Of a stretch of DNA of 64,000 nucleotides, positions 13,246 to 57,028 are shown one piece after another. Each line of letters begins with the position of its first letter. Positions within the stretch are counted from its first letter, which is position 1. Made by a program: the position numbers and the translations under genes. The notes beneath the pieces were generated by a model that was given only the letters and a program-made list of their open reading frames with translations, was not told where the DNA came from and made no database searches. Source of the stretch: Candidatus Izemoplasma sp. (lineage in GTDB: Bacteria; Bacillota_I; Bacilli_A; Izemoplasmatales; Izemoplasmataceae); NCBI GenBank assembly GCA_036172455.1, contig JAXKVY010000001.1, forward strand, positions 434,001 to 498,000, written 5' to 3'.

Positions 13246-13246
13246 T

Positions 13247-14059
13247 TTAGTCTTCCCAATCATCATAATAGCTGTGAACATCTCCATCTTGTTTCCATCG
13301 AACAATACTATCAAGATTAACATTTTCCGCCGCTCGGAAAATGTTTTTATCTATATCACTAAATTGCTTTTTAAGTTCTTTAATAAGTTTTTTTGTTGTT
13401 GCTCGTTTACTTGTAATATCACATGTAGCTAGTTCACATCCACAGCCCATTGTTTCAATATTATTTGCCTTCATAATACGAACAATATCTTTTTCATGAA
13501 CTAAATAAAGAGGACGAATTAACTCAATGTCTTCAAAATTTTCACTTTTTACTTTAGGCAACATTGTTTTAAAACTACCTGCATAAAAGATGTTCATCAG
13601 CGTTGTCTCAATAACATCATCGAAATGATGCCCTAAAGCTAATTTATTACAGCCCAGTTCTTTCGCAAAATTATATAAAAATCCCCGTCTCATGCGAGCG
13701 CACAGATAGCATGGTTTTCCCTTCGCATGTTTTCTTAAAATATCAAATGTATGAGATTCTCTAATATTTATTGGTATATCTAATTTTTCGGCATTTTCTT
13801 TTAATAATTCTAAATTAATGTCATTGAATCCTGGATTCATCGTAATAAAAACCAGTTCAAAATCGAGTTCAGGATGTCGTTTTAGTTCTTGGAAAAGTTT
13901 AGCCATAATTAAACTGTCTTTTCCTCCCGATATCGTCACGCCAATTTTATCGCCATTACTGACTAAACTATATTTTTTTATCCCTTTGAGAAAAGGGCCC
14001 CATAAGTCTTTTTTATAGGTTGTGATAAGGTCTCTTTCAAATGGTGTATGTGGTTTCAT
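13247..14059 (-). CDS. ttcA: tRNA 2-thiocytidine synthetase TtcA-like PP-loop ATPase
   Basis: The 270-residue protein has a PP-loop SGGKDS at 44-49 and a CxxC pair Cys117/Cys120 followed by ARMRRG, the TtcA hallmark. Further cysteines in MGCGCELATC (near 215-224) complete the site that holds the iron-sulfur cluster in this family. It inserts sulfur at C32 of certain tRNAs. The ATG at 14059, with GAGGTG six bases upstream, is preferred over the GTG at 14068. The gene is convergent with mnmE, with stops one base apart, and its 3' end contains the mnmE terminator. Confidence 0.88.
   Translation of the reverse strand: MKPHTPFERDLITTYKKDLWGPFLKGIKKYSLVSNGDKIGVTISGGKDSLIMAKLFQELKRHPELDFELVFITMNPGFNDINLELLKENAEKLDIPINIRESHTFDILRKHAKGKPCYLCARMRRGFLYNFAKELGCNKLALGHHFDDVIETTLMNIFYAGSFKTMLPKVKSENFEDIELIRPLYLVHEKDIVRIMKANNIETMGCGCELATCDITSKRATTKKLIKELKKQFSDIDKNIFRAAENVNLDSIVRWKQDGDVHSYYDDWED
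13319..13348 (+). terminator. Intrinsic terminator for mnmE lying inside the ttcA coding sequence
   Basis: A perfect 11-bp stem (13319-13329 with 13335-13345) and a CCGCT loop are followed on the plus strand by a T run. It lies 74 bp past the mnmE stop, within codons for the C-terminal part of TtcA. The minus-strand read-out lacks a T run, so it should stop only mnmE transcripts. Confidence 0.7.
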
Positions 14060-14135
14060 ATCTATCACCTCAATTAGTACGGTGTTTAGTATACTATACT
14101 TAATGATAAATAAAAAATAATTAAAAATAATTTTC

Positions 14136-14164
14136 TTGAAGTTTTAGGGAACTAGGAGTATAAT
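14136..14164 (+). promoter_or_regulatory. Promoter of the NfeD/RDD/SPFH cassette
   Basis: TTGAAG at 14136-14141 and TATAAT at 14159-14164 are separated by exactly 17 bp. They lie upstream of the 127-residue gene and its GGAGGTG ribosome site. Confidence 0.7.
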
Positions 14165-14205
14165 ATGTGTATATCTTATAAAAATATATAGATGGAGGTG
14201 TTTTT

Positions 14206-14589
14206 ATGTCATTTGTTTGGGCTTCTAAGAAACCTAAAGATGGTATTGCGACGATTTACGAATCAAATATAACATTAAATAAAGCGGCAAGCTCACATTT
14301 TGAACATGCCTATAATGTTTTACTCGGTCTTGATGAAGATAGCAAAAAAGTTGCAATTAAACCTGTCTCAAAAGAAGAGTTTGATATTGGGGCTATTCCT
14401 GAAGAAAAAAGACATAAAATAACAGTGAAACCGAGTTATGCTCGTGTTTGTAATAAAAAATTTATCGGTGAACTAGCTGATGTAGCAAAGATTGATCTTG
14501 AAAATGGCCATTCCTTTAAGTTTAAAGCCTTTTGGGATAAAAGCCAATCCTTATTAGTCATAGATTTAAATAAACCGGAGGTGTCTTAA
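14206..14589 (+). CDS. Protein of unknown function, first gene of the NfeD/SPFH cassette
   Basis: I do not recognise this 127-residue protein. It has no signal peptide and no membrane segment. The sequence alternates short predicted strands and helices, with an N-terminal 'WASKKPKDGIATIYESNITLNKAASSHF' segment and a C-terminal strand-rich 'VCNKKFIGELADVAKIDLENGHSFKFKAF'. This resembles a small mixed alpha/beta domain. GGAGGTG lies five bases before the ATG. The next gene's ribosome site is inside its last codons, so it is co-translated with NfeD. A role in membrane organisation is suggested only by its neighbours. Confidence 0.75.
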   Translation: MSFVWASKKPKDGIATIYESNITLNKAASSHFEHAYNVLLGLDEDSKKVAIKPVSKEEFDIGAIPEEKRHKITVKPSYARVCNKKFIGELADVAKIDLENGHSFKFKAFWDKSQSLLVIDLNKPEVS

Positions 14590-14591
14590 TC

Positions 14592-15026
14592 ATGGATATG
14601 GAGTTAATGATAATTTTATGGTTTGTGGTTATTATAGTTGCTGCCCTTATTGAAATGAATACAATGGATTTAAGTAGTATTTGGTTTAGTGTTGGGGCAT
14701 TAATCGCATTTATTCTATCACTTGTTGGGTTACAACCCGTCGCACAGATTATTGTTTTTGTCGTTATATCGGTTGTCTTATTGATAAGTTTACGACCAAT
14801 TGCCAAAAACTATTTTAAAACCAATGTCATCAGTACCAACTCAGACAGGCTAGTTGGAAAAGTGGCAGTATGTACAAAGGAAATTAAAGCAGGAGATCGC
14901 GGTGAAGTTAAAATTGACGGTAAGTTTTGGCTTGCTGTTACATCAGGAGATGAAGACATTCAAGTTAATGACAAAGTGCAAGTCCTTGCAATAGAAGGCG
15001 TTAAATTGATTGTCGATAAGATTTAA
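14592..15026 (+). CDS. NfeD-like short membrane protein
   Basis: The 144-residue protein has three or four closely packed hydrophobic segments in residues 5-70. These are followed by a soluble OB-fold domain (about 80-144, 'RLVGKVAVCTKEIKAGDRGEVKIDGKFW'), the layout of short NfeD proteins. NfeD proteins partner with SPFH/stomatin proteins in membrane microdomains, and such a protein is encoded two genes downstream. The first ATG is used, ten bases after GGAGG. The stop codon overlaps the next ATG (TAATG). Confidence 0.88.
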   Translation: MDMELMIILWFVVIIVAALIEMNTMDLSSIWFSVGALIAFILSLVGLQPVAQIIVFVVISVVLLISLRPIAKNYFKTNVISTNSDRLVGKVAVCTKEIKAGDRGEVKIDGKFWLAVTSGDEDIQVNDKVQVLAIEGVKLIVDKI

Positions 15027-15631
15027 TGAAAGTTGGTTTATTTCGTCGTGCCACATCGTTTATTTTTGATGCCCTTCCTATCGTTCTAATCGTATCAATT
15101 GCCTATACAACCTTTATTGGGGATATGTTAAAAACCGAGGACTATGATGCATTAATGGAAGAATATAATGCGTATAATGATCAATATTATGAAGCTATAA
15201 AACCCTACCAAGAGCAACTTGATAATGGTGAAATCACACAAAATGAGTATTTGGATTTAGTTGAAGATGATTATAATACTTTAATTGATAATACCGTTGA
15301 ACATCGTGAAGCACTCATTTTTTACATCATTCGCTCATTCGCATTTCATTTCTTTGCGTTCACGGCCTTATATTATGCGTATAGTGTCTTGCTAAAGGGG
15401 CGTACATATGGACGTCGTTTACTAAAAATAGAGCTTGGAGGACGGATCAATTGGTGGACATTACTGATTAGAGAAGTCATATACAAAATGTTTTTCTGGT
15501 TACTTACATTGTTCGTGTTAGGCATCGGCATCGATATTGCCACAATTGTTTTTGGGCAACGAAAGCGAACCTTACGCGACAGAATTTCACATACATATGT
15601 AAAGTTTGAAGGTGTTGATTATCCATTTTAA
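15026..15631 (+). CDS. RDD family membrane protein
   Basis: The 201-residue protein opens with 'GLFRRATSFIFDALPIVLIV', the R...D start of RDD-domain proteins. A polar, acidic insert of about 50 residues lies between the first and second hydrophobic segments, with two or three membrane segments after it (about 90-112 and 155-178). It ends with a conserved-type 'RKRTLRDRISHTYV' tail. Function in the family is largely unknown, though ion transport has been proposed for some members. It is translationally coupled to NfeD. Confidence 0.85.
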   Translation: MKVGLFRRATSFIFDALPIVLIVSIAYTTFIGDMLKTEDYDALMEEYNAYNDQYYEAIKPYQEQLDNGEITQNEYLDLVEDDYNTLIDNTVEHREALIFYIIRSFAFHFFAFTALYYAYSVLLKGRTYGRRLLKIELGGRINWWTLLIREVIYKMFFWLLTLFVLGIGIDIATIVFGQRKRTLRDRISHTYVKFEGVDYPF

Positions 15632-15662
15632 CGGATAAAACAAAAAAAGGAGGAAACATATA

Positions 15663-16574
15663 ATGCCTACTACATTAATTATTTTAGTTATTATCATTGT
15701 CTTAGCTTTAGTATTAATTTCACAAGCCTTTGTGATTGTACAGCAATCAAATCGTTATGTTGTAGAACGCTTAGGTGGGTACCACGTATCTCTAGATGTT
15801 GGACTACACTTTATTGTGCCGTTTATCGATCGGGTAAAACAAAAAGTATCATTAAAAGAACAAGTTGTTGATTTTCCACCACAACCTGTTATCACCAAAG
15901 ATAACGTTACGATGCAAATTGATACGGTTGTATTCTATATGGTTACAGACGCTAAATTATTCACATACGGTGTTGATTTTCCATTAAAAGCCATTGAAAA
16001 CTTAACGGCTACAACACTACGTAACATCATTGGTGAACTTGAGTTAGATGAATCTTTAACGTCTCGTGACTTAATTAACGAAAAGATGCGCGTTATCTTA
16101 GATGAAGCAACTGACCCATGGGGAATTAAAATTAACCGTGTCGAAGTTAAAAACATCATTCCGCCTAAAGACATTCGTGAGGCAATGGAAAAACAAATGC
16201 GTGCTGAGCGTGAACGTCGTCAAGCAATCTTAATAGCTGAAGGGAATAAACGCTCTGCGATATTAACTGCTGAAGGTGAAAAGGAAGCACAAATCTTACG
16301 TGCAGACGCAGAAAAAGAAAAACAAATCCGTGAAGCTGCCGGGAAAGCAAAAGCAATCATTGAAGTACAAACCGCAACAGCAAAAGGTATTGAGATGATT
16401 AAAAAAGCTGGTGCTGATGAAGCATTCTTACGCTTAGAAGCTTACAAAGCTATGGTTGATGTTGCCAATGGACAAGCAACTAAACTTGTTATCCCATCAG
16501 AACTACAGGGTATGGTTGGTCTCGCATCAACATTATCAGAAGCTGTTAAAAAAGATCCTGAAACATCAAAATAA
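15663..16574 (+). CDS. SPFH/band 7 (stomatin, QmcA-like) membrane protein
   Basis: The 303-residue protein has one N-terminal membrane anchor (5-25). An SPFH domain follows (about 26-185: 'VVERLGGYHVSLDVGLHFIVPFID', 'NIIGELELDESLTSRD'). Next come an Ala/Glu/Lys-rich coiled coil (about 185-250) and a C-terminal hydrophobic turn, matching stomatin-like proteins that form ring oligomers. These scaffold membrane microdomains and often act with NfeD. AAAGGAGG precedes the ATG. It is the last gene of the cassette and is closed by a strong terminator. Confidence 0.95.
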   Translation: MPTTLIILVIIIVLALVLISQAFVIVQQSNRYVVERLGGYHVSLDVGLHFIVPFIDRVKQKVSLKEQVVDFPPQPVITKDNVTMQIDTVVFYMVTDAKLFTYGVDFPLKAIENLTATTLRNIIGELELDESLTSRDLINEKMRVILDEATDPWGIKINRVEVKNIIPPKDIREAMEKQMRAERERRQAILIAEGNKRSAILTAEGEKEAQILRADAEKEKQIREAAGKAKAIIEVQTATAKGIEMIKKAGADEAFLRLEAYKAMVDVANGQATKLVIPSELQGMVGLASTLSEAVKKDPETSK

Positions 16575-19335: not shown

Positions 19336-19556
19336 AAAAACGTCCTTAAACAACTGTCTAAGGACGAAATAATTTCCGCGGTACCACCTTAATTCTACTA
19401 TAAGCACTCACACTCTTTAACGCAGAGGTACGGATAGGTCTACTTATTTCTTCTATCACTCACGGTGTTATTCTATTATACGCTATGATCTAGCTTGCAC
19501 CATCCTAGACTCGCTCAACACGCTTGTATAATATACTTCTCCGATCAACGTTTATA
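19336..19556 (-). promoter_or_regulatory. T-box riboswitch controlling asnS
   Basis: The minus strand carries the hallmark T-box antiterminator element AAGGTGGTACCGCGG at 19390-19376. A competing terminator follows: stem 19366-19359 with 19348-19341, then TTTTT. An upstream stem I region includes GAATAACACC, in which AAC at 19469-19467 is the likely specifier codon for asparagine. Uncharged tRNA-Asn is expected to stabilise the antiterminator and allow asnS transcription. Confidence 0.92.
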
Positions 19557-19561
19557 GTTTA

Positions 19562-31521: not shown

Positions 31522-31729
31522 AAAAAAATCGCCCTTAAAAGGACGAATAATCGTGGTACCACCTTATTTTAGAGTTGCCTCTATCTCATAGTTTATAACG
31601 GAACAACCCGAAGATCATTACTCTTACTCGAAGGGAGATTCACTCAGTCACTTTATTAGTTTTCACCCACCACTAACTCTCTTTAAAAGTGATTATCAGC
31701 TACTTGTCCTTGTCATCGTTGTTGTCTTG
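31522..31729 (-). promoter_or_regulatory. T-box riboswitch controlling serS-pepA
   Basis: The minus strand has the T-box element AAGGTGGTACCACGA at 31565-31551. A terminator with stem TCGTCCTT/AAGGGCGA at 31546-31529 and a long T run follows. Stem I contains GTGAATCTCCC, where UCU (or UCC) is the probable serine specifier. The specifier phase is less certain than for asnS. Confidence 0.9.
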
Positions 31730-37660: not shown

Positions 37661-37684
37661 AAAAAAGACCGAAAATTTCGGTCT
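37661..37684 (-). terminator. Intrinsic terminator of dnaN
   Basis: A stem (37666-37672 with 37678-37684, extendable by two A-T pairs) covers the dnaN stop. TTTTTTTT follows on the minus strand. It separates dnaA-dnaN from yaaA-recF-gyrBA. Confidence 0.8.
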
Positions 37685-38807
37685 ATTCTGTTCTTACAGG
37701 AAGGATAAGTTGTAACATTTTATCATCGTATTCACCTTTGATGATAAAAGGTCTTATTTCACCTGTAAAATTGATTGCTACTTCGCTTGAATTAAAGATT
37801 TTTAGAGCATCCAAGATGTATTTTGAACTAAATGCAATCTTGAATGGTGTTCCAACAATCTCATCAACTGGATAAACCTCTTCTAAAACTTTACCAATTT
37901 CAGGACTGTTTGAAGTAATCTCAACAATATTGTCTTTGCGTAAACTGAGTTTAACAATGGCGTTGTTACCATCTCTACTAGATAATAAACTTGCCCGTTC
38001 AATAGCCGTCATGAGATCTTCTTTATTAAATTTAATTACAATTGGAAATTCTGTTGGAATAAGTTTTGATGTTTCCGGGTAATTCCCTTCTAACAATCTA
38101 GATTGAAATAATATGTTATTGTATTTAAATAAAACTTTCGAATGATCAAAATGAATCTCAACTTCATCATTATTGTTGTTTAACACTTTCAATAACTCTT
38201 CTAAGCTTTTTCCAGGGATTATAATATTTAATGGTTCATAAGTGTCTTTTAGTTCAATCTCTTTTTGACTTAATCGATAACTATCTGTCGCAATCCCTGT
38301 TAATTTATTACCATCTATTTTAAAGTTAACACCGGTTAAGATAGGTCTATTTTCAATAGTTGATGTAGCAAATGAAGTTTGTCTTATAATAGATTTTAAT
38401 ATTCTAACATTAATTTTGATAGATTTAACTTTTTCACTAAATTTTAATTCAGGATAGTCTTCTAAGTCCATCATATTTAATGTGATGTCAGAACGATCTG
38501 CTTCAATTCGTAGTGTGTTATCTGCCACTAGTGATAAATTTACTTTTAATCCATCTAGTTTCCGGATAATTTCAATAAAATACTTCCCTGGGATTAATAA
38601 AGATCCTTCTGTTTCAACATTCAAGCTAGGATCTTTAATATTAAGCTTGATAGCAATATCTGAATTGCTAGTAGTAATTATTAATTGATCTTTGAAAACA
38701 TCTAATTTAATGCCCTGTAAAGCAGGATTAGGTGTTTTGTTTGATAATGCTTTTTGAGCAATTAGTAAATTGTTTAGTAAAGCATCTTTGTTAATTTGAA
38801 AGTTCAT
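37683..38807 (-). CDS. dnaN: DNA polymerase III beta sliding clamp
   Basis: The 374-residue clamp has the expected three-domain length. Recognisable segments are 'NKTPNPALQGIKLDV', 'VNFKIDGNKLTGIATDSYRLSQKEI' and the C-terminal 'PFIIKGEYDDKMLQLILPVRTE', which ends in the conserved MLQLILPVR-type strand. It encircles DNA and tethers the replicative polymerase. GAGGTGATGGT precedes the ATG. DnaA-box-like sequences lie in its leader. Confidence 0.97.
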   Translation of the reverse strand: MNFQINKDALLNNLLIAQKALSNKTPNPALQGIKLDVFKDQLIITTSNSDIAIKLNIKDPSLNVETEGSLLIPGKYFIEIIRKLDGLKVNLSLVADNTLRIEADRSDITLNMMDLEDYPELKFSEKVKSIKINVRILKSIIRQTSFATSTIENRPILTGVNFKIDGNKLTGIATDSYRLSQKEIELKDTYEPLNIIIPGKSLEELLKVLNNNNDEVEIHFDHSKVLFKYNNILFQSRLLEGNYPETSKLIPTEFPIVIKFNKEDLMTAIERASLLSSRDGNNAIVKLSLRKDNIVEITSNSPEIGKVLEEVYPVDEIVGTPFKIAFSSKYILDALKIFNSSEVAINFTGEIRPFIIKGEYDDKMLQLILPVRTE

Positions 38808-38857
38808 ACCATCACCTCTAAATAATTATCTTTCTTTTTATTGTTATTATTATGTTG

Positions 38858-38901
38858 TGTGGAAATGTGGAAAAGATTTATTTTCTTACTCTATTATAAC
38901 A
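38858..38901 (-). promoter_or_regulatory. dnaN promoter with two DnaA-box-like sites
   Basis: On the minus strand an extended -10 TGTTATAAT lies at 38901-38893. Two overlapping DnaA-box-like 9-mers, TTTTCCACA (38874-38866) and ATTTCCACA (38866-38858), lie just downstream, where bound DnaA could affect dnaN transcription or act as part of the origin. Confidence 0.6.
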
Positions 38902-38929
38902 CAAACAAGCCATATTTTGGTATTTTTTT

Positions 38930-40300
38930 TTAGTTTTCTCCACATTTAACCATGAGTTTTTCCACATCTTTTTTAACATTGTTATCCATTTCCATTTCAT
39001 TCCTAATTTTTTCAACGGAATGCATGACTGTTGAGTGGTCTCTATTATTAAAGAAGGACCCTATTTTTTTGTAAGGTAAGTCGTATGTTTTTTTAATTAA
39101 ATACATACTTACCTGTCTAGGAAAAACGTACTTAGCAGAACGTTTTCTGGAAACCATATCGCTTGTACTAATACGATAATAATCACTGACAACACTCATA
39201 ATGTTTTTAACTTTATGATTTGTTACATCATTATTTTTAACTTTTGGTTTTATTAAAGTCTCAAGGGCAGCTTCAGCATTTTTTACAGTAAAGTCGAGAT
39301 TGAAGGCTGTACAATAAAACAACACTCTTTTTAATGCACCTTCTAATTCTCTTACATTATTAGTAAACATACTTGCTATAAATTCAATGACACTTTGAGG
39401 TATTAAGTTAGCATCTGATGTTTCTGCTTTTAATTTTTTCTTTAAAATTTTTATACGATGATCTAAATCTGGACGATTAATATCTACCGTAACACCCCAT
39501 TCAAATCGTGATGTTAAACGAGACATTATATCTTTTAATTCAGCAGCACTTCTATCACTCGTTATAACAATTTGTTTGTGATTACTATGCAATGTTTCAA
39601 ATAATTTAAAGAATTCTTCCTGCGATTTTTCCTTTTTAGCAAGAAACTGAATATCATCAACGAGTAAAACATCAACATCACGGTATTTATCGTTAAATTC
39701 ATCAAATTTCTTTTTACTAGCTAACCGAACATATTCTTCAACAAATTGATCTGTTTTTACATATAGAACTTTCGCATTTATATTCCCTTCAAGGACATAG
39801 TTACCCACACATTGCATTAAGTGTGTTTTACCTAACCCAACATCACCAAATATATATAGAGGATTTGCAACAATTCCTGGTTGATCAGCAACCTTAATGG
39901 CACTTGTGTAAGCTAGTCTATTAGAATTACCTACAACAAAACTATCAAAGGTATAACTGGTGTTTAGGTTGCTGTTTAAGGTTTTTTTTGTTAAATCCTC
40001 TGGCTCAGTAATTGAAAATTCTTTTTGATCATCCAATTCTTCTTTAGCCTGATTCTCGGTAATAATCTTAAATTTGTGGATATCTTCAAATTTATGTTTT
40101 AAATAGCGGTTTAATTTATTTAAATAAAGCATCTCGATCCGCTTTTTAATAAAATCGTTCGGTGCTATTAAATAAATATAATTGTTTGTCACTTTGAAAA
40201 TGGTATCGATTGGTTCAAAAATCTCTTGATATACTACATCATCTAAATCGTCTTTAACTTGTGATTTTATGTCATTCCAAACAAGCATAAATTGATCCAT
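38930..40300 (-). CDS. dnaA: Chromosomal replication initiator DnaA
   Basis: The 456-residue AAA+ protein has an N-terminal helicase/regulator domain and Walker A 'GDVGLGKTHLMQ'. It also has Walker B 'LLVDDIQFLAKKEKSQEEFF', sensor regions and the domain IV box-binding signature 'FNNRDHSTVMHSVEKI'. It binds the 9-mer boxes in the adjacent intergenic regions and opens the origin. AGAGGTGAAATAG precedes the ATG at 40300. The gene points away from the proposed oriC. Confidence 0.98.
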   Translation of the reverse strand: MDQFMLVWNDIKSQVKDDLDDVVYQEIFEPIDTIFKVTNNYIYLIAPNDFIKKRIEMLYLNKLNRYLKHKFEDIHKFKIITENQAKEELDDQKEFSITEPEDLTKKTLNSNLNTSYTFDSFVVGNSNRLAYTSAIKVADQPGIVANPLYIFGDVGLGKTHLMQCVGNYVLEGNINAKVLYVKTDQFVEEYVRLASKKKFDEFNDKYRDVDVLLVDDIQFLAKKEKSQEEFFKLFETLHSNHKQIVITSDRSAAELKDIMSRLTSRFEWGVTVDINRPDLDHRIKILKKKLKAETSDANLIPQSVIEFIASMFTNNVRELEGALKRVLFYCTAFNLDFTVKNAEAALETLIKPKVKNNDVTNHKVKNIMSVVSDYYRISTSDMVSRKRSAKYVFPRQVSMYLIKKTYDLPYKKIGSFFNNRDHSTVMHSVEKIRNEMEMDNNVKKDVEKLMVKCGEN

Positions 40301-40326
40301 CTATTTCACCTCTTGCTTTCGTAAAC

Positions 40327-40335
40327 AATATATCA
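40327..40335 (-). promoter_or_regulatory. dnaA promoter (extended -10)
   Basis: The minus strand reads TGATATATT, an extended -10, about 27 bp upstream of the dnaA ATG. Three DnaA boxes lie within 80 bp upstream, consistent with autoregulation. Confidence 0.5.
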
Positions 40336-40641
40336 TATAATTTAGTGGAAAAGAACGAAAACTTATACACTGATAATGTGGAAAACTTTAATTGTCCACA
40401 CCCATTATCAACAATACGTGTAATGGGAAAGCCCTTTTTGTAGGGACTAAAGAACCTTTTCCACAAAGGTGTTAAAAATTTGTAGACACTTTCCACTTAT
40501 CCACAATTGCATTTATGGAAATATAGGAATAAAGCCAAATCACGGTGTGGAAAACTTTTTTTAAAGTGCTGTTTTATTTATAATAATTTGTGATTAATTT
40601 GAGTTTATTATAGGTTAGCGATAGATTTTTTTTGTTTATAG

Positions 40642-40670
40642 TTGACATCAAACTAATATATATATATAAT
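40642..40670 (+). promoter_or_regulatory. Consensus promoter of rpmH
   Basis: A perfect TTGACA (40642-40647) and a perfect TATAAT (40665-40670) have a 17-bp spacer. This is the strongest promoter match in the window, as expected for a ribosomal protein gene. Confidence 0.85.
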
Positions 40671-40710
40671 AGCATAGCATGGTTACAATGAAACTAGGAG
40701 GTGTTGATTC

Positions 40711-40848
40711 ATGTCTAAAAGAACATATCAACCAAACAAGCGTAAAAAAGCGAAAAAGCATGGCTTCTTCTCAAGAATGAAAAGCAAAAATGGTAGAAAA
40801 GTATTAAAAAGAAGACGTGCAAAAGGTCGTAAGCAACTAACCAAATAA
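40711..40848 (+). CDS. rpmH: 50S ribosomal protein bL34
   Basis: The 45-residue, very basic protein starts [19 protein letters not shown] and continues [22 protein letters not shown], the full bL34 pattern. AGGAGGTG lies about nine bases before the ATG. It follows the consensus promoter at the edge of oriC and precedes rnpA, the near-universal order. A long hairpin separates it from rnpA. Confidence 0.98.
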
Positions 40849-49865: not shown

Positions 49866-50867
49866 ATTTAAAACGGTTGTAAGATTGTTTGCTTTCTGCA
49901 TTAGATCATCAAACTTTTTCGGTTTAAGTGATTGTGCTCCATCACTAAGTGCATTTTCTGGTTCATGATGGACTTCTATAATTAATCCATCGGCACCAGC
50001 AGCTATACTTGCCATTGATAAACTTTCTACTAGATCCCAATGTCCGGCGGCATGAGAGGGGTCGATGATAACTGGTAAATGGCTTAGTTTTTTTATTATA
50101 GGGATTGTTGATATATCGAGAGTATTACGGGTATAAGGTTCAAATGTACGTATACCACGTTCACATAAAATAACATTTTCATTTCCCCCAGCCATGATAT
50201 ATTCAGCGCTCATTAACCATTCTTCAATGGTATTAGAAAAGCCTCTTTTTAACAAGACAGGAATATTTAATTTACCAAGTTCCTTAAGTAATGCAAAGTT
50301 TTGCATATTCCGTGCACCAATTTGAATAATATCGACATATTCTAGAAATTCTGGAATATGGTCTTTATCCATTAATTCTGAGACGATCGGCATGTTATAT
50401 TTTTGGCCAACATCATGTAATATCTTTAATCCTTCTTTTCCCATACCTTGGAATGTATAAGGACTTGTACGGGGTTTATAAGCCCCACCTCTTAAGATAT
50501 GAGCACCACTTTCTTTTACTGCTTTTGCGATTATCTCAACTTGCTCTTTGGATTCAACACTACATGGTCCAGCCATGACAGTGAGATTAGAGCCACCTAT
50601 TGTGATATCTTTCACTTTTATTAAGGTATCTTCACTTTTTAGTTTTCGATTTACTTTTTTAAAAGGTTCTTGAATTCTAATAACACTATCGACACTTTCA
50701 AATGCATATAAGCTTCTTGTATCGAATTGTGCCGTATCACCAACGACTCCGAAAATGTGGTAGGTTTCTCCAACACTATCGTGTATTTCGAATCCTTTTG
50801 CTTTCAAGTGATTTTGAACTTTTTCAATCTGTTCTTTTGTTGATTGTTTCTTCATTTTAATAATCAT
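49851..50867 (-). CDS. aroF: 3-deoxy-7-phosphoheptulonate (DAHP) synthase
   Basis: The 338-residue enzyme catalyses the first shikimate step from PEP and erythrose 4-phosphate. It is a type I-beta enzyme: an N-terminal ferredoxin-like regulatory domain (about 1-85), then the barrel with 'VMAGPCSVESKEQ', 'RGGAYKPRTSPYTFQG' and 'PVIIDPSHAAGHWD'. The N-terminal extension suggests feedback control. It is the last gene of the aro operon, although its reaction is first in the pathway. Confidence 0.96.
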   Translation of the reverse strand: MIIKMKKQSTKEQIEKVQNHLKAKGFEIHDSVGETYHIFGVVGDTAQFDTRSLYAFESVDSVIRIQEPFKKVNRKLKSEDTLIKVKDITIGGSNLTVMAGPCSVESKEQVEIIAKAVKESGAHILRGGAYKPRTSPYTFQGMGKEGLKILHDVGQKYNMPIVSELMDKDHIPEFLEYVDIIQIGARNMQNFALLKELGKLNIPVLLKRGFSNTIEEWLMSAEYIMAGGNENVILCERGIRTFEPYTRNTLDISTIPIIKKLSHLPVIIDPSHAAGHWDLVESLSMASIAAGADGLIIEVHHEPENALSDGAQSLKPKKFDDLMQKANNLTTVLNKKIS

Positions 50868-50871
50868 TGTT

Positions 50872-51303
50872 TTAACCTTCTTCTTTTATTAAGTATTTGA
50901 TTCCATCTAGATAACTGCTAAATCCATTACCTTGAAAAGTTTTAAGGCAAGCGTCTTTGATGACTGAATGTTGTCTAAATATTTCTCTTTTTGAAATATC
51001 TGAGAGGTGGACTTCTATGACAGGAACACCTATAGATTTTATGGCATCATGCAAGGCATATGAATAGTGGGTAAGCGCTCCAGCATTAAGTATAACGCCA
51101 TCAAAATGCTCATGCGCATAATGTAATAAATCAATAAGAACTCCTTCAAAATTACTTTGTTTTATATCAAGTGTAATACCCTTTTCACTTGCGTAATCTT
51201 GTAGTGTATTTTCTAAATCTTGATAGGTCTTTTCACCATATACATTCGGTTCACGAATACCTAACATATTTAAGTTAGGTCCATTCAATACTAGTATATT
51301 CAT
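50872..51303 (-). CDS. aroQ: 3-dehydroquinate dehydratase, type II
   Basis: The 143-residue enzyme has 'ILVLNGPNLNMLGIREPNVYG' with the catalytic Arg and Tyr loop, 'NAGALTHYSYALHDAI' and 'EVHLSDISKREIFRQHSVI' with catalytic His. It performs step 3 of the shikimate pathway as a dodecamer in known members. Its start overlaps the end of the aroEK gene by 29 bp. Confidence 0.96.
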   Translation of the reverse strand: MNILVLNGPNLNMLGIREPNVYGEKTYQDLENTLQDYASEKGITLDIKQSNFEGVLIDLLHYAHEHFDGVILNAGALTHYSYALHDAIKSIGVPVIEVHLSDISKREIFRQHSVIKDACLKTFQGNGFSSYLDGIKYLIKEEG

Positions 51304-52540
51304 TTAATGCCACCACCATCTTATTTAAAATTATATCTACATCTAAAGTATCCTTTTTTATAACAATATCTGCAGCGTTTATGTAGGTATTGTAACGTTT
51401 ATTATATAATATCTCAAGTGATTTGTTATCTTTTAGTAATGGCCGATTTTTAGAGCAGAACCTTTTTAGCATAGAGAGTGGTGTATCAATAAAAATGACT
51501 ATTCCATTACTCCTTAAAGCATCAATATTTTGAACGCTTGTTATAACACCACCGCCACAGGATATGACATAGTTATGTTCTTTTGCGTAATGTAATACTA
51601 CTTTAGACTCAATATTTCGAAAATAGTTTTCTCCTTTATCTTCAAATATTTTCGGAACAGGTATAGATTCTTTTTTTTCAATTTCTTGGTCTATATCAAC
51701 CAATTTCATATTTATTAAGTTAGATAATTTCTTACCATAAAGCGATTTTCCAGACATAGGCATACCAATAAGAACAATATTATAACGGCTTTTAAGAAGC
51801 CTTTTATAATAGTGATTAATATGATCAAGAGAGATTGTTTTATTGTGAAAAATTTCAATTGCTTTTATAGCTTGCATAACCAGCATATATAGACCATTAA
51901 CTGTTTTTACATTATACTGCTCTGCTTCTCTCAATAGTGTCGATTTAAGTGGATTATAGATAACATCAACCACCACACTAACCGGAGTATTATTTGAAAA
52001 CTTGATTGGTAGATGTGCCAAAATGTTTGGATACATGCCAACAGGTGTCGCATTAAATATGATGTCATAGTCTAATGTATTTAATGCATTTAAGTGTATT
52101 TGATTAGCACGAGGGTGTCTAGCTGCAACTGTGATTTTATTTGTATTATTCTGATTACAGTAATATTCAATTGTTCTTGCAGTAGAGCCATTTCCTAGAA
52201 TTAATACTTTTTTATTATCTACACTAATATTATGATAATTACATAATGATTTTAGTCCAAAGTAATCAGTATTATATCCGATCAGTTTTCCTTTTGAATT
52301 AAGTATGGTATTAACTACCCCAATTGCTCTTGCTTCTTCCGATAGTTCATCAAGAAAAGGAATAACATCCTTTTTGTAGGGGATTGTAACATTAACACCA
52401 GTAAACTTTTTATCGGACATAAATTGAGATATCTCATCTAGCTCGATTAAGTCATAATTAGAATTTGTGAAATGTTCGTGAATTTCTTTTGAAAAGCTAT
52501 GTGATAAATGTTTACCTATAAGACCAAAGTGAGTTTTCAA
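51275..52540 (-). CDS. aroEK: Fused shikimate dehydrogenase-shikimate kinase (AroE-AroK)
   Basis: This is a 421-residue two-enzyme protein. Residues 1 to about 248 are AroE: 'IGKHLSHSFSKEIHEHF', catalytic Lys56 in NVTIPYK, Asp92 in GYNTD, the NADP loop LGNGSTART and the 'NGLYMLVMQA' tail. Residues about 252-421 are AroK: P-loop GMPMSGKS at 259-266, Asp284 in DID, Arg308 in FRNIE, GGG at 329-331 and lid Arg366. The frame is uninterrupted. The start is TTG at 52540, with AAGGA nine bases upstream; no in-frame ATG is available. It performs pathway steps 4 and 5. Confidence 0.94.
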   Translation of the reverse strand: MKTHFGLIGKHLSHSFSKEIHEHFTNSNYDLIELDEISQFMSDKKFTGVNVTIPYKKDVIPFLDELSEEARAIGVVNTILNSKGKLIGYNTDYFGLKSLCNYHNISVDNKKVLILGNGSTARTIEYYCNQNNTNKITVAARHPRANQIHLNALNTLDYDIIFNATPVGMYPNILAHLPIKFSNNTPVSVVVDVIYNPLKSTLLREAEQYNVKTVNGLYMLVMQAIKAIEIFHNKTISLDHINHYYKRLLKSRYNIVLIGMPMSGKSLYGKKLSNLINMKLVDIDQEIEKKESIPVPKIFEDKGENYFRNIESKVVLHYAKEHNYVISCGGGVITSVQNIDALRSNGIVIFIDTPLSMLKRFCSKNRPLLKDNKSLEILYNKRYNTYINAADIVIKKDTLDVDIILNKMVVALNEYTSIEWT

Positions 52541-52782
52541 TTTTGGACATCCTTACTCGTCTTAAGAATGGTTTTATAAATTTCTTTGATTTGTGGGTAA
52601 TTGCTATATCTAGACGTTTTATCAAATATCTCTTGTTCTCTATTTGAATGTAATACAGGTAGATTATATTTCTTTTTATATTCCCCAACAGCACGTGATA
52701 AGTTAAAACGTTGTTCAAGCAATGCCATAATTTTAGAATCAAGATCGTCTATTTTATTTCTTAACGTACTTAAATCATCCAT
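52537..52782 (-). CDS. Chorismate mutase, AroQ-class, monofunctional
   Basis: The 81-residue all-helical protein starts 'LSTLRNKIDDLDSKIMALLEQRFNLSRAVGEYKKKY' and continues 'NREQEIFDKTSRY', with the Arg, Lys, Glu and Gln positions of AroQ-class chorismate mutases. It converts chorismate to prephenate. It overlaps aroC by 13 bp and aroEK by 4 bp. It is not fused to DAHP synthase or prephenate enzymes here. Confidence 0.92.
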   Translation of the reverse strand: MDDLSTLRNKIDDLDSKIMALLEQRFNLSRAVGEYKKKYNLPVLHSNREQEIFDKTSRYSNYPQIKEIYKTILKTSKDVQN

Positions 52783-53858
52783 GAATATCCCTCTTCTTTT
52801 GTTAAGACTTCTACGAGTGCATAGGCTGTCATAGCATTGATCACATGGACAACGCGATGGACGATTGCTGGATCATGACGGCCTTCTAGTTGATAGGTCA
52901 TAGTTTCTTTTGTCTTATAATTTACGGTCTTTTGATGTTTACCTATTGAGGCAGTTGGCTTAACAGCGGTTTTAAAGACAATCGGCATGCCATTGGAAAT
53001 ACCCCCTTGTATACCTCCAGAGTTATTTGTTTTTGTAACAATTTTATCATTTTGTATTGTGAAAGGATCATTTGCTTCTGATCCATAAAGTGTTGTGATG
53101 TCGAAGCCCTTACCAAAGGATAAACCTTTGATGGCAGGAATACTGTAAAGGTGTTTAGCTAGGGTACTTTCTAGAGTATTGAAATATGGCCCCCCAATAC
53201 CAGCTGGCATATTTAATATCGCTGTTTCAATGGTCCCACCAACACTATCTTTATTTTCCTTAGCTGTTAAAATTGTCTTTTCATAGTGAGGAAGAATGGT
53301 ATCGTCAATTACTGGGAAAGCGCTATTTAGAAGTGATTTAAGATTTTCTTTAGTGATGTTATCTAGTGTAAAAGAAGCATCGTTCACTTCTTTAATGGAT
53401 GCAATATGAGAAGCAATAATTATATTTTTTTGTTCTAGTAATTGTCGGCATATTGCTCCTAAGATAACTAATGGTGCTGTAATACGGCCAGAAAAATGAC
53501 CTCCTCCACGATAATCATGGTTAGAACGATATTTTATATGAGCAGTATAATCGGAATGGGATGGTCTTAAAATATCTTTGTTATAATCTTTAGACTTAGT
53601 ATCTTTGTTAGGGATTACAATAGTTAGAGGGGTTCCTGTTGTTTTATCTTGAAAATACCCACTTATGATTTGATATGGGTCGGGTTCACGTCTTTTTGTA
53701 GATAAAGATGATGTCGGACGTCGTTGTTCTAACGCGTTATTAATCATATTTAAATCTAGTTTAATACCAGCAGGTAAGTTGTGAATCGTAATACCAATCA
53801 TTTTTCCATGAGATTCACCGAAAAGACTGATTGGAATTGCATCGCCAATTGTACTCAT
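52770..53858 (-). CDS. aroC: Chorismate synthase
   Basis: The 362-residue FMN-dependent enzyme has 'LFGESHGKMIGITIHNLPAGIKLD', 'RRPTSSLSTKRREPD', 'DYRGGGHFSGRITAPLVILG' and 'GGIQGGISNGMPI', all standard signatures. It makes chorismate from EPSP. It lies four bases after aroB and overlaps the chorismate mutase gene downstream. Confidence 0.97.
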   Translation of the reverse strand: MSTIGDAIPISLFGESHGKMIGITIHNLPAGIKLDLNMINNALEQRRPTSSLSTKRREPDPYQIISGYFQDKTTGTPLTIVIPNKDTKSKDYNKDILRPSHSDYTAHIKYRSNHDYRGGGHFSGRITAPLVILGAICRQLLEQKNIIIASHIASIKEVNDASFTLDNITKENLKSLLNSAFPVIDDTILPHYEKTILTAKENKDSVGGTIETAILNMPAGIGGPYFNTLESTLAKHLYSIPAIKGLSFGKGFDITTLYGSEANDPFTIQNDKIVTKTNNSGGIQGGISNGMPIVFKTAVKPTASIGKHQKTVNYKTKETMTYQLEGRHDPAIVHRVVHVINAMTAYALVEVLTKEEGYSWMI

Positions 53859-53862
53859 ATCA

Positions 53863-54864
53863 TCACCTCAAATAGTTGTTTATTTCAGTCAATTTAATTG
53901 TCTTTATATAGCCATTTCCCACTTCATCTACTAAAATCATATTTAAATGATCATTATAAACTTTTTTATCAGTTTTAATGGCTTTTAAAATAGCGTCTTT
54001 TTTATATGAATAATCTAGCGGAAGATTGTAGTGTCTTAATAATTGTGTGAGTGATTCTTCAAAAGGTTTGTCCTTTGCGAGCATATGCATCGCAATAGCG
54101 ATCGATTCCCCATGAAGTAATTCATATTCTGAGTATTGTTCAATAGCGTGCCCGATGGTATGGCCATAATTTAATAGTTGCCTAACACCTTGATCCTTTT
54201 CATCTAAATAGACAATGCGCGCCTTTATGGCTACACATGTTGCTATAATTTCGTCAATAATATTGATAATGTTATTTGTATTTAACCGATGGAATAACTT
54301 TGAATCTGATATCAGCCCATACTTGATAATTTCTGCCATACCATTATTAAAATGTCTATTTTCCAATGTGTTTAACGTTTTTGGATCAATTAGGACTTTC
54401 TTTGGATGTTTGTATGCCCCAATTGCATTCTTCATTGTAGGGCTATTAACAGCTGTTTTACCACCAACACTACTATCGACTTGAGCGAGAAGCGTTGTTG
54501 GAATTTGAACATAGTCTATACCTCGCAAATACACACTAGCTATAAATCCAGCTAAATCACCAACGACACCACCACCTAAAGCAATTAATACATAATCTTT
54601 GGTGACGCCATCTTCTATCATTTGTTCGATAATATCTTGCACGACAGGTAGCGATTTTGATTGTTCGCCTGCTTTAAAGAAATAGCTGTGCTTAATTGAC
54701 AATTGCTTGTGTATTGTTTCATAATATACCTTTGGAATATTATCGTCCGAAATGAGAATGTAATTGCTAGTTTTTGGTAAATAAGGTGTAATATTGCTTA
54801 ATAAATCGTGTTCAATATACACTGTATAGGTATGATGTTTTGTTTTAACAAAGACTTTTTTCAT
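53863..54864 (-). CDS. aroB: 3-dehydroquinate synthase
   Basis: The 333-residue NAD-dependent enzyme has 'IALGGGVVGDLAGFIASVYLRG', 'PTTLLAQVDSSVGGKTAVN' and 'LLNYGHTIGHAIEQYSEYELLHGESIAIAM' with the zinc-binding His residues. It cyclises DAHP. I start at the ATG at 54864, eight bases after GGAG; the GTG at 54873 abuts the ribosome site. Confidence 0.97.
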   Translation of the reverse strand: MKKVFVKTKHHTYTVYIEHDLLSNITPYLPKTSNYILISDDNIPKVYYETIHKQLSIKHSYFFKAGEQSKSLPVVQDIIEQMIEDGVTKDYVLIALGGGVVGDLAGFIASVYLRGIDYVQIPTTLLAQVDSSVGGKTAVNSPTMKNAIGAYKHPKKVLIDPKTLNTLENRHFNNGMAEIIKYGLISDSKLFHRLNTNNIINIIDEIIATCVAIKARIVYLDEKDQGVRQLLNYGHTIGHAIEQYSEYELLHGESIAIAMHMLAKDKPFEESLTQLLRHYNLPLDYSYKKDAILKAIKTDKKVYNDHLNMILVDEVGNGYIKTIKLTEINNYLR

Positions 54865-54869
54865 TGGAT

Positions 54870-56141
54870 TCACTCCTTAATCTCTATAATGCCTCCCAAT
54901 CGCTTATAATCTTCAAAGAAGGAAGGATAAGATTTATTAACAGCTTTCGCATTCGTTAATGTTACTGGGTTTTTACATACAGTAGTAGCGATTGCCACCA
55001 TCATTGCGATACGATGATCATTGAATGAGTCGACAGTAACGCCACCTTCTAGATGCTTTTTACCTTTGATAGTGATAGATTCATCATCGTTTGTAATATC
55101 AGCCCCTAAGGCTTTTAAAGTAGATACTGTTGAATAAATCCGGTCAGATTCCTTTATTTTTAAGCGATGGGCGTTAATTAATTTTGTTGTCCCCTCACTG
55201 ACGGAACCTAACAAGGATAGAATGGGGGCTAAATCCGGACAATTTGAAATATCTATAGTGGTTCCTAAAGTGGATTTTTTTGTTATGGTATAGCCATTAT
55301 CCGTGACTATAGGTTGAGCGTTCATCTGGGTTAAAAAATCAATAATTGCCTTATCGCCTTGGACACTATTTATATTCAGATTATGAATAGAAATACCACC
55401 GTTAATCGCACCAGCAACAAAGAAGAACGCAGCTTGAGAAAAATCACCCTCAACAGTATATTGATTACCTTTATATTGCTGATTTCCTTTTATATAATAT
55501 CGGTTTTCTCTTTCTTTTATGGTGATGTTAAATGATTTTAGCACATCTATTGTTAGGTCGATGTAACTTTTAGATTCTAGTGGACCTTCAACGATGAGTG
55601 TGGAATCTCCATCTAATAGAGGAAGTGTGAGCATTAATCCGGTAAAAAACTGGGAACTAACATTCCCTTTTAATATGTATTCACCTGGCTTAATAGAGCC
55701 GTTTACCACTATTTTATTATCGGCTATTGTAAGGGTACTGTCACTTTTATTAAAGACATCTTCGTATAATGTCATAGGACGATTTAATAATGACTGACGA
55801 CCTGTTAATGTGATTGTTTTATCATACAAAGATGTAACGGGTATTAAAAAACGAAGGGTTGAACCACTCTCATTACAGTCAATGGTTTTGGCTTTTAAAA
55901 AGCGTTTTTTCTTTGGTTTAATATAGATGCTGGAGTCCTTTATTTTAATCGATGTACCGAGTTTCTTCACAGCGTTTAAAGTAGCTTTTATATCATCAGA
56001 TAATAAGACATTATATAAAGTAGACGGTTGATCTGATAACGCCGCTGCGATAATCGCACGGTGGGCAACGCTTTTAGAGGAAATAGCGGATATAGAACCA
56101 TGCAAAGATGTGGGAAATAGCTTAACGACGGTATCATTCAT
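54870..56141 (-). CDS. aroA: 5-enolpyruvylshikimate-3-phosphate synthase
   Basis: The 423-residue enzyme has the shikimate-3-phosphate loop 'SKSVAHRAIIAAAL', 'CNESGSTLRFLIPVTSL', 'VSSQFFTGLMLTLPLL', 'RLKIKESDRIYS' and 'DHRIAMMVAIA'. The segment around ESGSTLRFLIP holds Ser where class I enzymes have Ala, so glyphosate class should not be guessed from one residue. It overlaps tyrA by eight bases. Confidence 0.97.
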   Translation of the reverse strand: MNDTVVKLFPTSLHGSISAISSKSVAHRAIIAAALSDQPSTLYNVLLSDDIKATLNAVKKLGTSIKIKDSSIYIKPKKKRFLKAKTIDCNESGSTLRFLIPVTSLYDKTITLTGRQSLLNRPMTLYEDVFNKSDSTLTIADNKIVVNGSIKPGEYILKGNVSSQFFTGLMLTLPLLDGDSTLIVEGPLESKSYIDLTIDVLKSFNITIKERENRYYIKGNQQYKGNQYTVEGDFSQAAFFFVAGAINGGISIHNLNINSVQGDKAIIDFLTQMNAQPIVTDNGYTITKKSTLGTTIDISNCPDLAPILSLLGSVSEGTTKLINAHRLKIKESDRIYSTVSTLKALGADITNDDESITIKGKKHLEGGVTVDSFNDHRIAMMVAIATTVCKNPVTLTNAKAVNKSYPSFFEDYKRLGGIIEIKE

Positions 56142-56979
56142 TGTTAATATCCTCTCTTGTCTTAGTCGATTTTTGCATTAGTTTAGTTAAAGTATCTTTA
56201 TCTTTATTTTGAATGGAATCCCGGATTAAACTCAGTTGATCAATAAAAGTGTCAATATTTCTAGTTAGAAAATCCTTGTTTTCAAAAAATAACTCAGTCC
56301 ACAATTCATCATTAATCATAGCAATTCGTGTTAATTCCTTATAAGAATCACCAATAAACCGTTTAGTATCAAAGTTATAGGCGTCACTATTCACAAGCGC
56401 TACTGCAATTGCATGAGTCAATTGTGAGGTGAATCCTAGAATTTTATCGTGATCAACATCAGAAATTTCTGTAACCGTACTAAATCCCATTTGTTTTGCG
56501 AGTGTTTTGATGAGATTTATATGTTCTTCTTTATTACGTGAATGTGGGGTTATAACAAAATTAGCTCCTTCAAATAAATTGGCTTTACTATGGGATATTC
56601 CACTCTTTTCACTACCGGCAATGGGATGGGTTAACACGATGTTTATATCGTCATTAAAAAATAAATCTAATTGATTTGTCATGTGTCTCTTTACACCAGC
56701 AACATCTACGACAATGGCGTCTTGCTTAAAATTGTTAATGTGCTTTTTAATGAAATCTATTGTTTGGTTAGGATATAGACATACAAAGACAATATCACAG
56801 TCTTTTAAAAGTTTCTTTGCACTAATACTGCCTCTATCAACAATATTATGCTTTAGGGCGTAATCTATTGTCTCTTGTTTGATGTCAATACCAACAAGCT
56901 CATACCCATAAGGTTTTAAAGCCTTTGCATAAGAGCCACCAATAATACCTAATCCAATTATTCCGATAGTCACTTTCAT
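56134..56979 (-). CDS. tyrA: Prephenate dehydrogenase
   Basis: The 281-residue enzyme has the NAD motif 'IGIIGLGIIGGSYAKAL', 'IVVDVAGVKRHM', 'THPIAGSEKSGISHSKANLFEGANFVITP' and 'GFTSQLTHAIAVAL' with catalytic His. It converts prephenate to 4-hydroxyphenylpyruvate on the way to tyrosine. It heads the aro operon. The start could be this ATG or a GTG at 56973, which is better spaced from AGGTG. No ACT domain is present. Confidence 0.94.
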   Translation of the reverse strand: MKVTIGIIGLGIIGGSYAKALKPYGYELVGIDIKQETIDYALKHNIVDRGSISAKKLLKDCDIVFVCLYPNQTIDFIKKHINNFKQDAIVVDVAGVKRHMTNQLDLFFNDDINIVLTHPIAGSEKSGISHSKANLFEGANFVITPHSRNKEEHINLIKTLAKQMGFSTVTEISDVDHDKILGFTSQLTHAIAVALVNSDAYNFDTKRFIGDSYKELTRIAMINDELWTELFFENKDFLTRNIDTFIDQLSLIRDSIQNKDKDTLTKLMQKSTKTREDINNE

Positions 56980-56999
56980 CACCTACTTATTGTATCTTC

Positions 57000-57028
57000 A
57001 TTATACACTATTTAAGGTGAAATGTTGA
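57000..57028 (-). promoter_or_regulatory. Promoter of the aro operon
   Basis: On the minus strand TCAACA (57028-57023) and TATAAT (57005-57000) are 17 bp apart, about 20 bp upstream of tyrA. No T-box or other leader control is visible. Confidence 0.6.

Follow-up and report, generated by a model that had tools for sequence, protein, structure and literature searches.

The 64,000-nucleotide stretch of Candidatus Izemoplasma sp. DNA analysed here (the window) contains dnaA, the gene for the replication initiator protein, between its neighbours rpmH and dnaN. This locus is very probably where a Candidatus Izimaplasma-like bacterium begins to replicate its chromosome, at an origin whose two parts flank dnaA as in Bacillus. 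The probability that it is the chromosomal origin and is unwound in the dnaN leader can be put at roughly 80%. The proposed site is an array of five triplets directly behind a pair of DnaA boxes. These triplets would represent a variant of the DnaA-trio, the repeat on which DnaA opens the duplex in Bacillus.

The locus consists of three genes and two gaps:
37683 to 38807, minus strand: dnaN, DNA polymerase III beta subunit; open reading frame aligning with the dnaN annotated in control records.
38808 to 38929: dnaA-dnaN gap (oriC2), the dnaN leader; from the sequence and the list of open reading frames.
38930 to 40300, minus strand: dnaA, initiator protein, 456 amino acids; listed open reading frame, Pfam DnaA C-terminal domain over the cut-off, alignment to B. 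subtilis DnaA (PDB 8btg).
40301 to 40710: rpmH-dnaA gap (oriC1), holding the main cluster of DnaA boxes.
40711 to 40848, plus strand: rpmH, whose product we take to be ribosomal protein L34; open reading frame with the L34 motif, in the same place in relatives.

The gene order is thus rpmH-dnaA-dnaN. The closest named relatives of the DnaA protein come from metagenome genomes called Bacillales bacterium (97%, partial), Candidatus Izimaplasma bacterium (92%; HR2 81%) and Mycoplasmatota bacterium.

Evidence for a chromosomal origin is provided by the GC skew. Computed across 157 contiguous kb, the cumulative skew is lowest at window position 40504, within the rpmH-dnaA gap. Contig stretches sampled over 60-474 kb have negative skew throughout (one is close to zero, at -0.007), and later stretches are positive. 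Because the 10 contigs of this 1.69 Mb genome are unordered and were sampled in stretches only, the full switch was examined in a relative assembled as a single contig (G011, 1.88 Mb). Here the minimum, at 363010, adjoins dnaA (361430-362794), and 20 sampled 20-kb stretches place the second change of sign at 1.32-1.41 Mb, more or less across the chromosome from dnaA. One of the 20 samples deviates from the pattern (282001-302000, +0.014). A sequence-only reading of the window had proposed a Bacillus-like two-part origin around dnaA, to be checked against the skew switch. The switch sits at the locus, and the gene order, the upstream box cluster and a downstream box pair kept in relatives agree with that proposal.

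Some skew features do not follow the simple two-arm pattern. On contig G000:C1 the sign flips again between 1-50000 (L031, L032) and 60001 onwards (L033), about 420 kb from dnaA. The terminus of a 1.69 Mb genome would be expected near 840 kb, and the flip may reflect a rearrangement, unequal arms or a misjoined contig. Within the window, 13001-16000 and 50001-57000 show local anomalies relative to the surrounding arms; these are perhaps inverted or acquired segments.

The downstream half of the origin lies in the dnaN leader. Boxes were scored by their mismatches to the consensus TTATCCACA, with 2000 dinucleotide shuffles as the null model. The elements, in the direction of dnaN, are:
38893 to 38903, minus strand: extended -10 like sequence TGTGTTATAAT, probable dnaN promoter; TRTGNTAWAAT occurs in 50 of 56 leaders, near-duplicates included.
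38866 to 38874, minus strand: DnaA box TTTTCCACA, first of a tandem pair; one mismatch; pair kept in relatives.
38858 to 38866, minus strand: DnaA box ATTTCCACA, the second member of the pair, which shares one base with the first; two mismatches; pair kept in relatives.
38853 to 38857, minus strand: spacer CAACA between box pair and array; read from the sequence.
38838 to 38852, minus strand: triplet array TAA TAA TAA CAA TAA on the dnaA strand (plus strand 5'-TTATTGTTATTATTA-3'), a run of five; proposed variant DnaA-trios and unwinding site.

The sequence-only reading had correctly noted the two overlapping boxes, and had missed the five in-phase YAA triplets directly behind them. The published module consists of a box, a spacer of up to 16 bp and at least three 3'-NAN-5' triplets, as described for the basal unwinding system (BUS) in PMC8287927. 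In the window, the tandem boxes are co-oriented and point to the repeat, which starts 13 nt from the first box and 5 nt from the second. In shuffled leaders, a run of four was never reached in 2000 trials, and a run of three was reached in 5. Two features of the known module are absent from this leader: there is no run of three YTA triplets, that is, of the consensus trio 3'-[G/A]AT-5', and no GC-rich spacer. In some relatives the spacer contains GCCC or CCCC.

Two other sequences may extend the downstream half. These are box-like, with one mismatch each, and lie at 38936-38944 and 38958-38966 on the plus strand, inside the dnaA 3' end, where they overlap conserved codons. In many relatives, the dnaN leader carries a conserved motif resembling AAAACSGCT some 10 bases ahead of its extended -10 sequence; the corresponding place in the window is around 38903-38920. 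A similar CGGCT follows the upstream box at 40546.

The module is widely conserved. The comparison covered 53 distinct leaders of the order and 44 distinct upstream regions, after merging three identical leaders and three identical upstream stretches, and allowed boxes with up to three mismatches. A run of at least three triplets is present on the dnaA strand in 45 of the 53 leaders, always of the YAA type, and on the opposite strand in 6. Among the upstream regions, such a run is found once in 44 on the dnaA strand and never on the rpmH strand. Eight Bacillota loci were fetched as controls and seven with dnaN beside dnaA were used; L109, an isolated dnaA, was left out. The seven (Priestia, C. 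difficile, Acetoanaerobium, Listeria, S. epidermidis, Latilactobacillus and Paenibacillus cellulosilyticus) have the same layout with YTA triplets.

Departures from the module occur in some relatives. In seven loci of the genus coded g106 (L089, L119, L120 and L225-L228), whose genomes measure about 0.5-0.9 Mb, the dnaA-dnaN gap is 12-52 bp long and carries neither tandem boxes nor an array. In these reduced genomes the module seems to have been lost or moved. In Izimaplasma relatives L211, L212, L216, L230, L231, L005 and L052, single bases are inserted between YAA triplets, in places resembling a 7-base repeat, as with TAATAAC TAATAAC in L231. Such insertions would break a strict triplet register.

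An array in this position might also belong to dnaN itself, serving its transcription or translation as part of the start region or 5' leader. The leaders are AT-rich, and the promoter-like sequence just before the boxes places both boxes and array in the likely dnaN 5' leader. This explanation is nevertheless very unlikely. The run, its phase and its distance from the box match the module known from experiments reported for Bacillus and C. difficile. The run is also strand-specific, as the counts of 45 and 6 leaders indicate, and its type follows the residues of the pocket with which DnaA binds single strands, as described below.

The upstream half contains the larger number of boxes. The region 40301-40710 has six boxes with at most one mismatch and nine with at most two, and neither count was reached in any of the 2000 shuffles. 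The cluster seen by the sequence-only reading is therefore real, while the number of seven boxes it gave depends on the cut-off. The elements of this half are:
40327 to 40337, minus strand: extended -10 like sequence TATGATATATT, possible dnaA promoter; conserved block in 18 aligned upstream regions.
40377 to 40385, minus strand: DnaA box TTTTCCACA; box scan.
40392 to 40400, plus strand: DnaA box TTGTCCACA; box scan.
40405 to 40413, plus strand: DnaA box TTATCAACA; box scan.
40457 to 40465, plus strand: DnaA box TTTTCCACA; box scan.
40497 to 40505, plus strand: consensus DnaA box TTATCCACA, no mismatch.
40546 to 40554, minus strand: DnaA box TTTTCCACA; box scan, with a box here in most of the 18 aligned regions.
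40555 to 40680: AT-rich, thermodynamically weak stretch; stability profile and alignment.
40642 to 40670, plus strand: rpmH promoter-like pair TTGACA-17-TATAAT; read from the sequence.

The AT-rich stretch had been taken as the unwinding site, on the side opposite to that used in Bacillus. As DNA it is indeed weak: the least stable 100-bp window of the upstream gap is 40572-40672, and only 11 of 63900 such windows in the 64 kb are lower. The main box cluster adjoins it. Even so, it is improbable that the duplex opens here. The weakest point of the stretch, the 25 bp at 40647-40672, coincides in part with the rpmH promoter-like pair, and TTGACA-N15-20-TATAAT is found in 45 of 47 upstream regions. 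Roughly 50 bp of the stretch (about 40565-40625) are an expansion that the window shares with L002, its nearest relative, and in a shorter form with L020; most of the 18 aligned regions lack it. The 42 relatives compared are divided: in 20 the upstream side is less stable than the leader, and in 22 the reverse holds. No run of triplets behind a box was found on either strand of 40301-40710. A candidate picked by eye, TTA TTC CTA behind the box at 40546, was dropped, as its triplets do not recur in aligned relatives.

A precedent comes from C. difficile, where instability is predicted in both halves of the origin at higher superhelicity, yet DnaA-dependent melting is mapped to the dnaA-dnaN gap, or oriC2, in the account given by PMC7561715. 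The upstream AT-rich stretch is mainly the rpmH promoter and a lineage-specific expansion. Because of the promoter overlap, the expansion, the split of 20 against 22 and the C. difficile precedent, AT-richness does not locate the unwinding site. A placement upstream is not supported: the module of boxes, spacer and triplets sits in the dnaA-dnaN gap and points to dnaN.

Some observations count against unwinding in the dnaN leader: 8 of the 53 leaders lack a run of three, and in the window itself the upstream side is the less stable one. By number alone, the downstream boxes are within chance (114 and 265 of 2000 shuffles); the pair is credible because it is kept in relatives together with the array behind it.

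How the array is read depends on its register. The consensus trio is given as 3'-GAT-5' in PMC6669920. According to PMC10721633, B. subtilis DnaA captures the first two bases of each trio, the middle adenine contacts Asn187, and initiation suffers when thymine replaces this adenine in trios 1-3. The existence of deviant trios in which the middle adenine is missing has been suspected (PMC8287927). On the strand bound by DnaA, the repeat of the window is 5'-TTR-3' where the canonical repeat is 5'-TAR-3', which corresponds to YAA and YTA on the dnaA strand. Read 3' to 5' away from the boxes, the variant would be [A/G]-T-T instead of [G/A]-A-T. This frame, with a thymine in the middle, is favoured because it keeps the C/T alternation at the first position, where the box strand has 410 T and 100 C among 555 triplets, and changes only one position. 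Taken alone, the middle-thymine register is somewhat better than an even bet.

The array may instead be an ordinary DnaA-trio whose frame is set back by one base (3'-GAT/TAT-TRT-TRT-5'): the middle position would still hold A or G, and T would have replaced the first base. Neither the module nor its location would be affected; only the middle thymine would fall. Several counts suit this frame. In four of the six placed controls the array, that is the first triplet of the YTA run, starts 12 nt past the first box. One base earlier, 328 of 424 triplets of the YAA arrays have the canonical middle base, and 53 of 106 arrays have it in each of their first three triplets. The base preceding the run is C in 48 of 106, which yields a canonical first triplet. 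Weighing against the middle-thymine register, the array of the window read one base earlier gives exactly three 3'-TAT-5' triplets, which just pass the 3'-NAN-5' rule; 74 of 114 YAA leaders and 38 of 40 YTA leaders pass it as well.

However, the earlier frame requires two changed positions rather than one, and leaves 53 of 106 arrays with a non-adenine middle base within the first three triplets. Within the group, 8 of 18 YTA arrays begin at 13 nt, like the YAA arrays (46 of 106 at 13 nt, 31 at 12). Since the start distances overlap between the groups, distance alone does not decide the register. Mixed arrays such as that of L079 suit neither frame cleanly. The earlier frame has a fair chance of being right, and is the less probable of the two. 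In the family coded f12, four loci (L090, L121, L127 and L129) have TAA-only arrays together with Asn187, and the earlier frame, with its middle adenine, may apply there.

Residue 188 of the DnaA protein in the window is Glu, the counterpart of B. subtilis Asn187 in the alignment to PDB 8btg. In B. subtilis numbering, positions 187, 190, 193, 196 and 202 are Glu, Val, Ala, Lys and Asn. Of the trio pocket Asn187, Ile190, Ile193, Arg202 and Glu228, only Glu228 is kept. These residues are described as not universally conserved (PMC10721633).

For the comparison with repeat type, eight loci (L096, L098, L100, L102, L104, L233, L236 and L237) were removed beforehand, being copies of included loci or, in one case, partial. 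Removing 3 of 204 rows, which had no readable leader, left 201 scored loci: 119 of type YAA, 40 of type YTA and 42 unclear, the latter being left out of the association. On the DnaA tree, built with FastTree, repeat type changed at least nine times. Residue 187 is N in 19, D in 13, E in 6 and S in 2 of the YTA loci. Among the YAA loci it is E in 101, D in 6, N in 4, T in 3, S in 2, and A, V and Q in one each. Arrays that contain CAA have Glu187 in 65 of 66 cases, the single exception being Gln.

Raw covariation between repeat type and residue 187 was rejected as evidence, since it is confounded by descent. Independent pairs on the tree were used instead, with every column scored in the same way; the pairs rest on about 8-9 changes, and the residue split of each column was chosen from the data. 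Four of the nine trio-contact residues taken from PMC10721633, namely 190, 196, 187 and 222, rank 2, 4, 7 and 9 of 432 columns. The nine contacts have a mean of 2.49 against 0.89 for entropy-matched columns, a value reached in none of 5000 draws (rank-sum p 0.0026). When 87 traits were simulated on the tree, none matched the observed excess of 1.64 (simulated 0.11, standard deviation 0.35). The enrichment persists when the pocket columns are omitted from the tree, and likewise without the seven controls.

Against a link between pocket and repeat stand a number of results. When the tree is not taken into account, mutual information puts column 187 no higher than rank 57 of 434, and in independent pairs this column is not significant alone (about 2.9 in the same direction, 0.3 opposite and 4.8 without difference; median p 0.25). 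Exceptions occur in both directions: 6 of 40 YTA loci have Glu187, and 4 of 119 YAA loci have Asn187. Restricting the YAA arrays to those that bear CAA lowers 190 and 196 to ranks 80 and 144, with the average enrichment remaining. Contacts 202, 223 and 228 do not rank highly, 183 and 193 do so only moderately, and the non-contact columns 174, 309, 356 and 52 rank level with the contacts. The exclusion of 42 of 201 loci also belongs here. The single-strand pocket of DnaA thus seems to change with repeat type, as a statistical association of the nine-contact set and not of residue 187 alone.

The adjacent position 188 was also considered. In family f7, the YTA loci L068, L196 and L197 have Glu187-Asn188, and in its YAA loci residue 188 is Glu, Val or Thr. 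This observation is post hoc and is not claimed; position 188 ranks 132 of 212 over the AAA+ columns.

By analogy with the Bacillus system, the origin may work as follows. DnaA would load on the oriC1 boxes between rpmH and dnaA and on the two co-oriented tandem boxes of the dnaN leader. From the tandem boxes, a DnaA-ATP filament would extend onto the plus strand of the array, 5'-TTATTGTTATTATTA-3', at 38838-38852. There it would capture bases, one triplet per subunit, and the duplex would open towards dnaN. The middle base, read as adenine by Asn187 in B. subtilis, would here be thymine, facing Glu and other changed pocket residues. Looping may draw the upstream half into the process, in the way proposed for two-part origins (PMC7561715).

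The closest known system is the bipartite origin of B. subtilis, with its upstream box cluster and its BUS in incC, where the gap likewise has tandem co-oriented boxes followed by triplets towards dnaN. It differs in having seven boxes in incC, according to PMC6669920, where the window has two in the gap and the two box-like sequences in the dnaA 3' end. It also has canonical TAR trios and a GC-rich spacer, and its DnaA differs at positions 187, 190, 193, 196 and 202. In C. difficile, oriC1 and oriC2 surround dnaA in the same way, with the trio in oriC2, where the DnaA-dependent melting is placed (PMC7561715). Its triplets are the canonical CTA and TTA on the dnaA strand.

More distant systems share other features. 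The DNA unwinding element of E. coli oriC has the single-stranded motifs TTATT and TTGT, as reported in PMC10316083. Both occur on the plus strand of the array, with three copies of TTATT and one of TTGT. E. coli DnaA, like that of the window, has no Asn at the position of 187, the residue there being Gln208. Unlike the array, which adjoins dnaA in a Bacillus-like layout, E. coli oriC lies apart from dnaA, and recruitment is assisted by IHF (PMC10316083). In Thermotoga maritima, the same source describes a triplet motif, the eTrio, as required for single-strand binding and opening. This motif is TAG repeated three times, and in the alignment the T. maritima DnaA keeps Asn at 187.

Outside the origin, the window contains two T-box leaders on the minus strand, at 19357-19557 and 31536-31725. 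Both exceed the Rfam gathering score.

What seems to be new is the trio variant, together with the statistical evidence that the single-strand pocket of DnaA changes alongside it. A literature search that took in few subscription papers and preprints, and no supplementary tables such as Table S2 of PMC8287927, identified no report of a TTR trio or of covariation between trio and pocket. For the recognition of origins, the array has practical consequences. The published trio rule misses 40 of the 114 leaders of YAA type, and AT-richness alone would indicate the wrong side of this origin.

A broader interpretation, with the chances for and against it evenly balanced, is that the code by which DnaA recognises single-stranded origin DNA can evolve. 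The trio would have switched repeatedly, in the wider group around Izimaplasma, between TAR, with a middle A and mostly Asn or Asp at 187, and TTR, with a middle T and mostly Glu187 and changes at 190, 193, 196 and 222. If this is true, changes at a few pocket residues could exchange the specificity of unwinding, and TTR would represent the TTATT/TTGT alphabet of E. coli set into a Bacillus-type module. Natural switches of the repeat, associated with changes at named residues of the pocket, lend themselves to a direct swap experiment.

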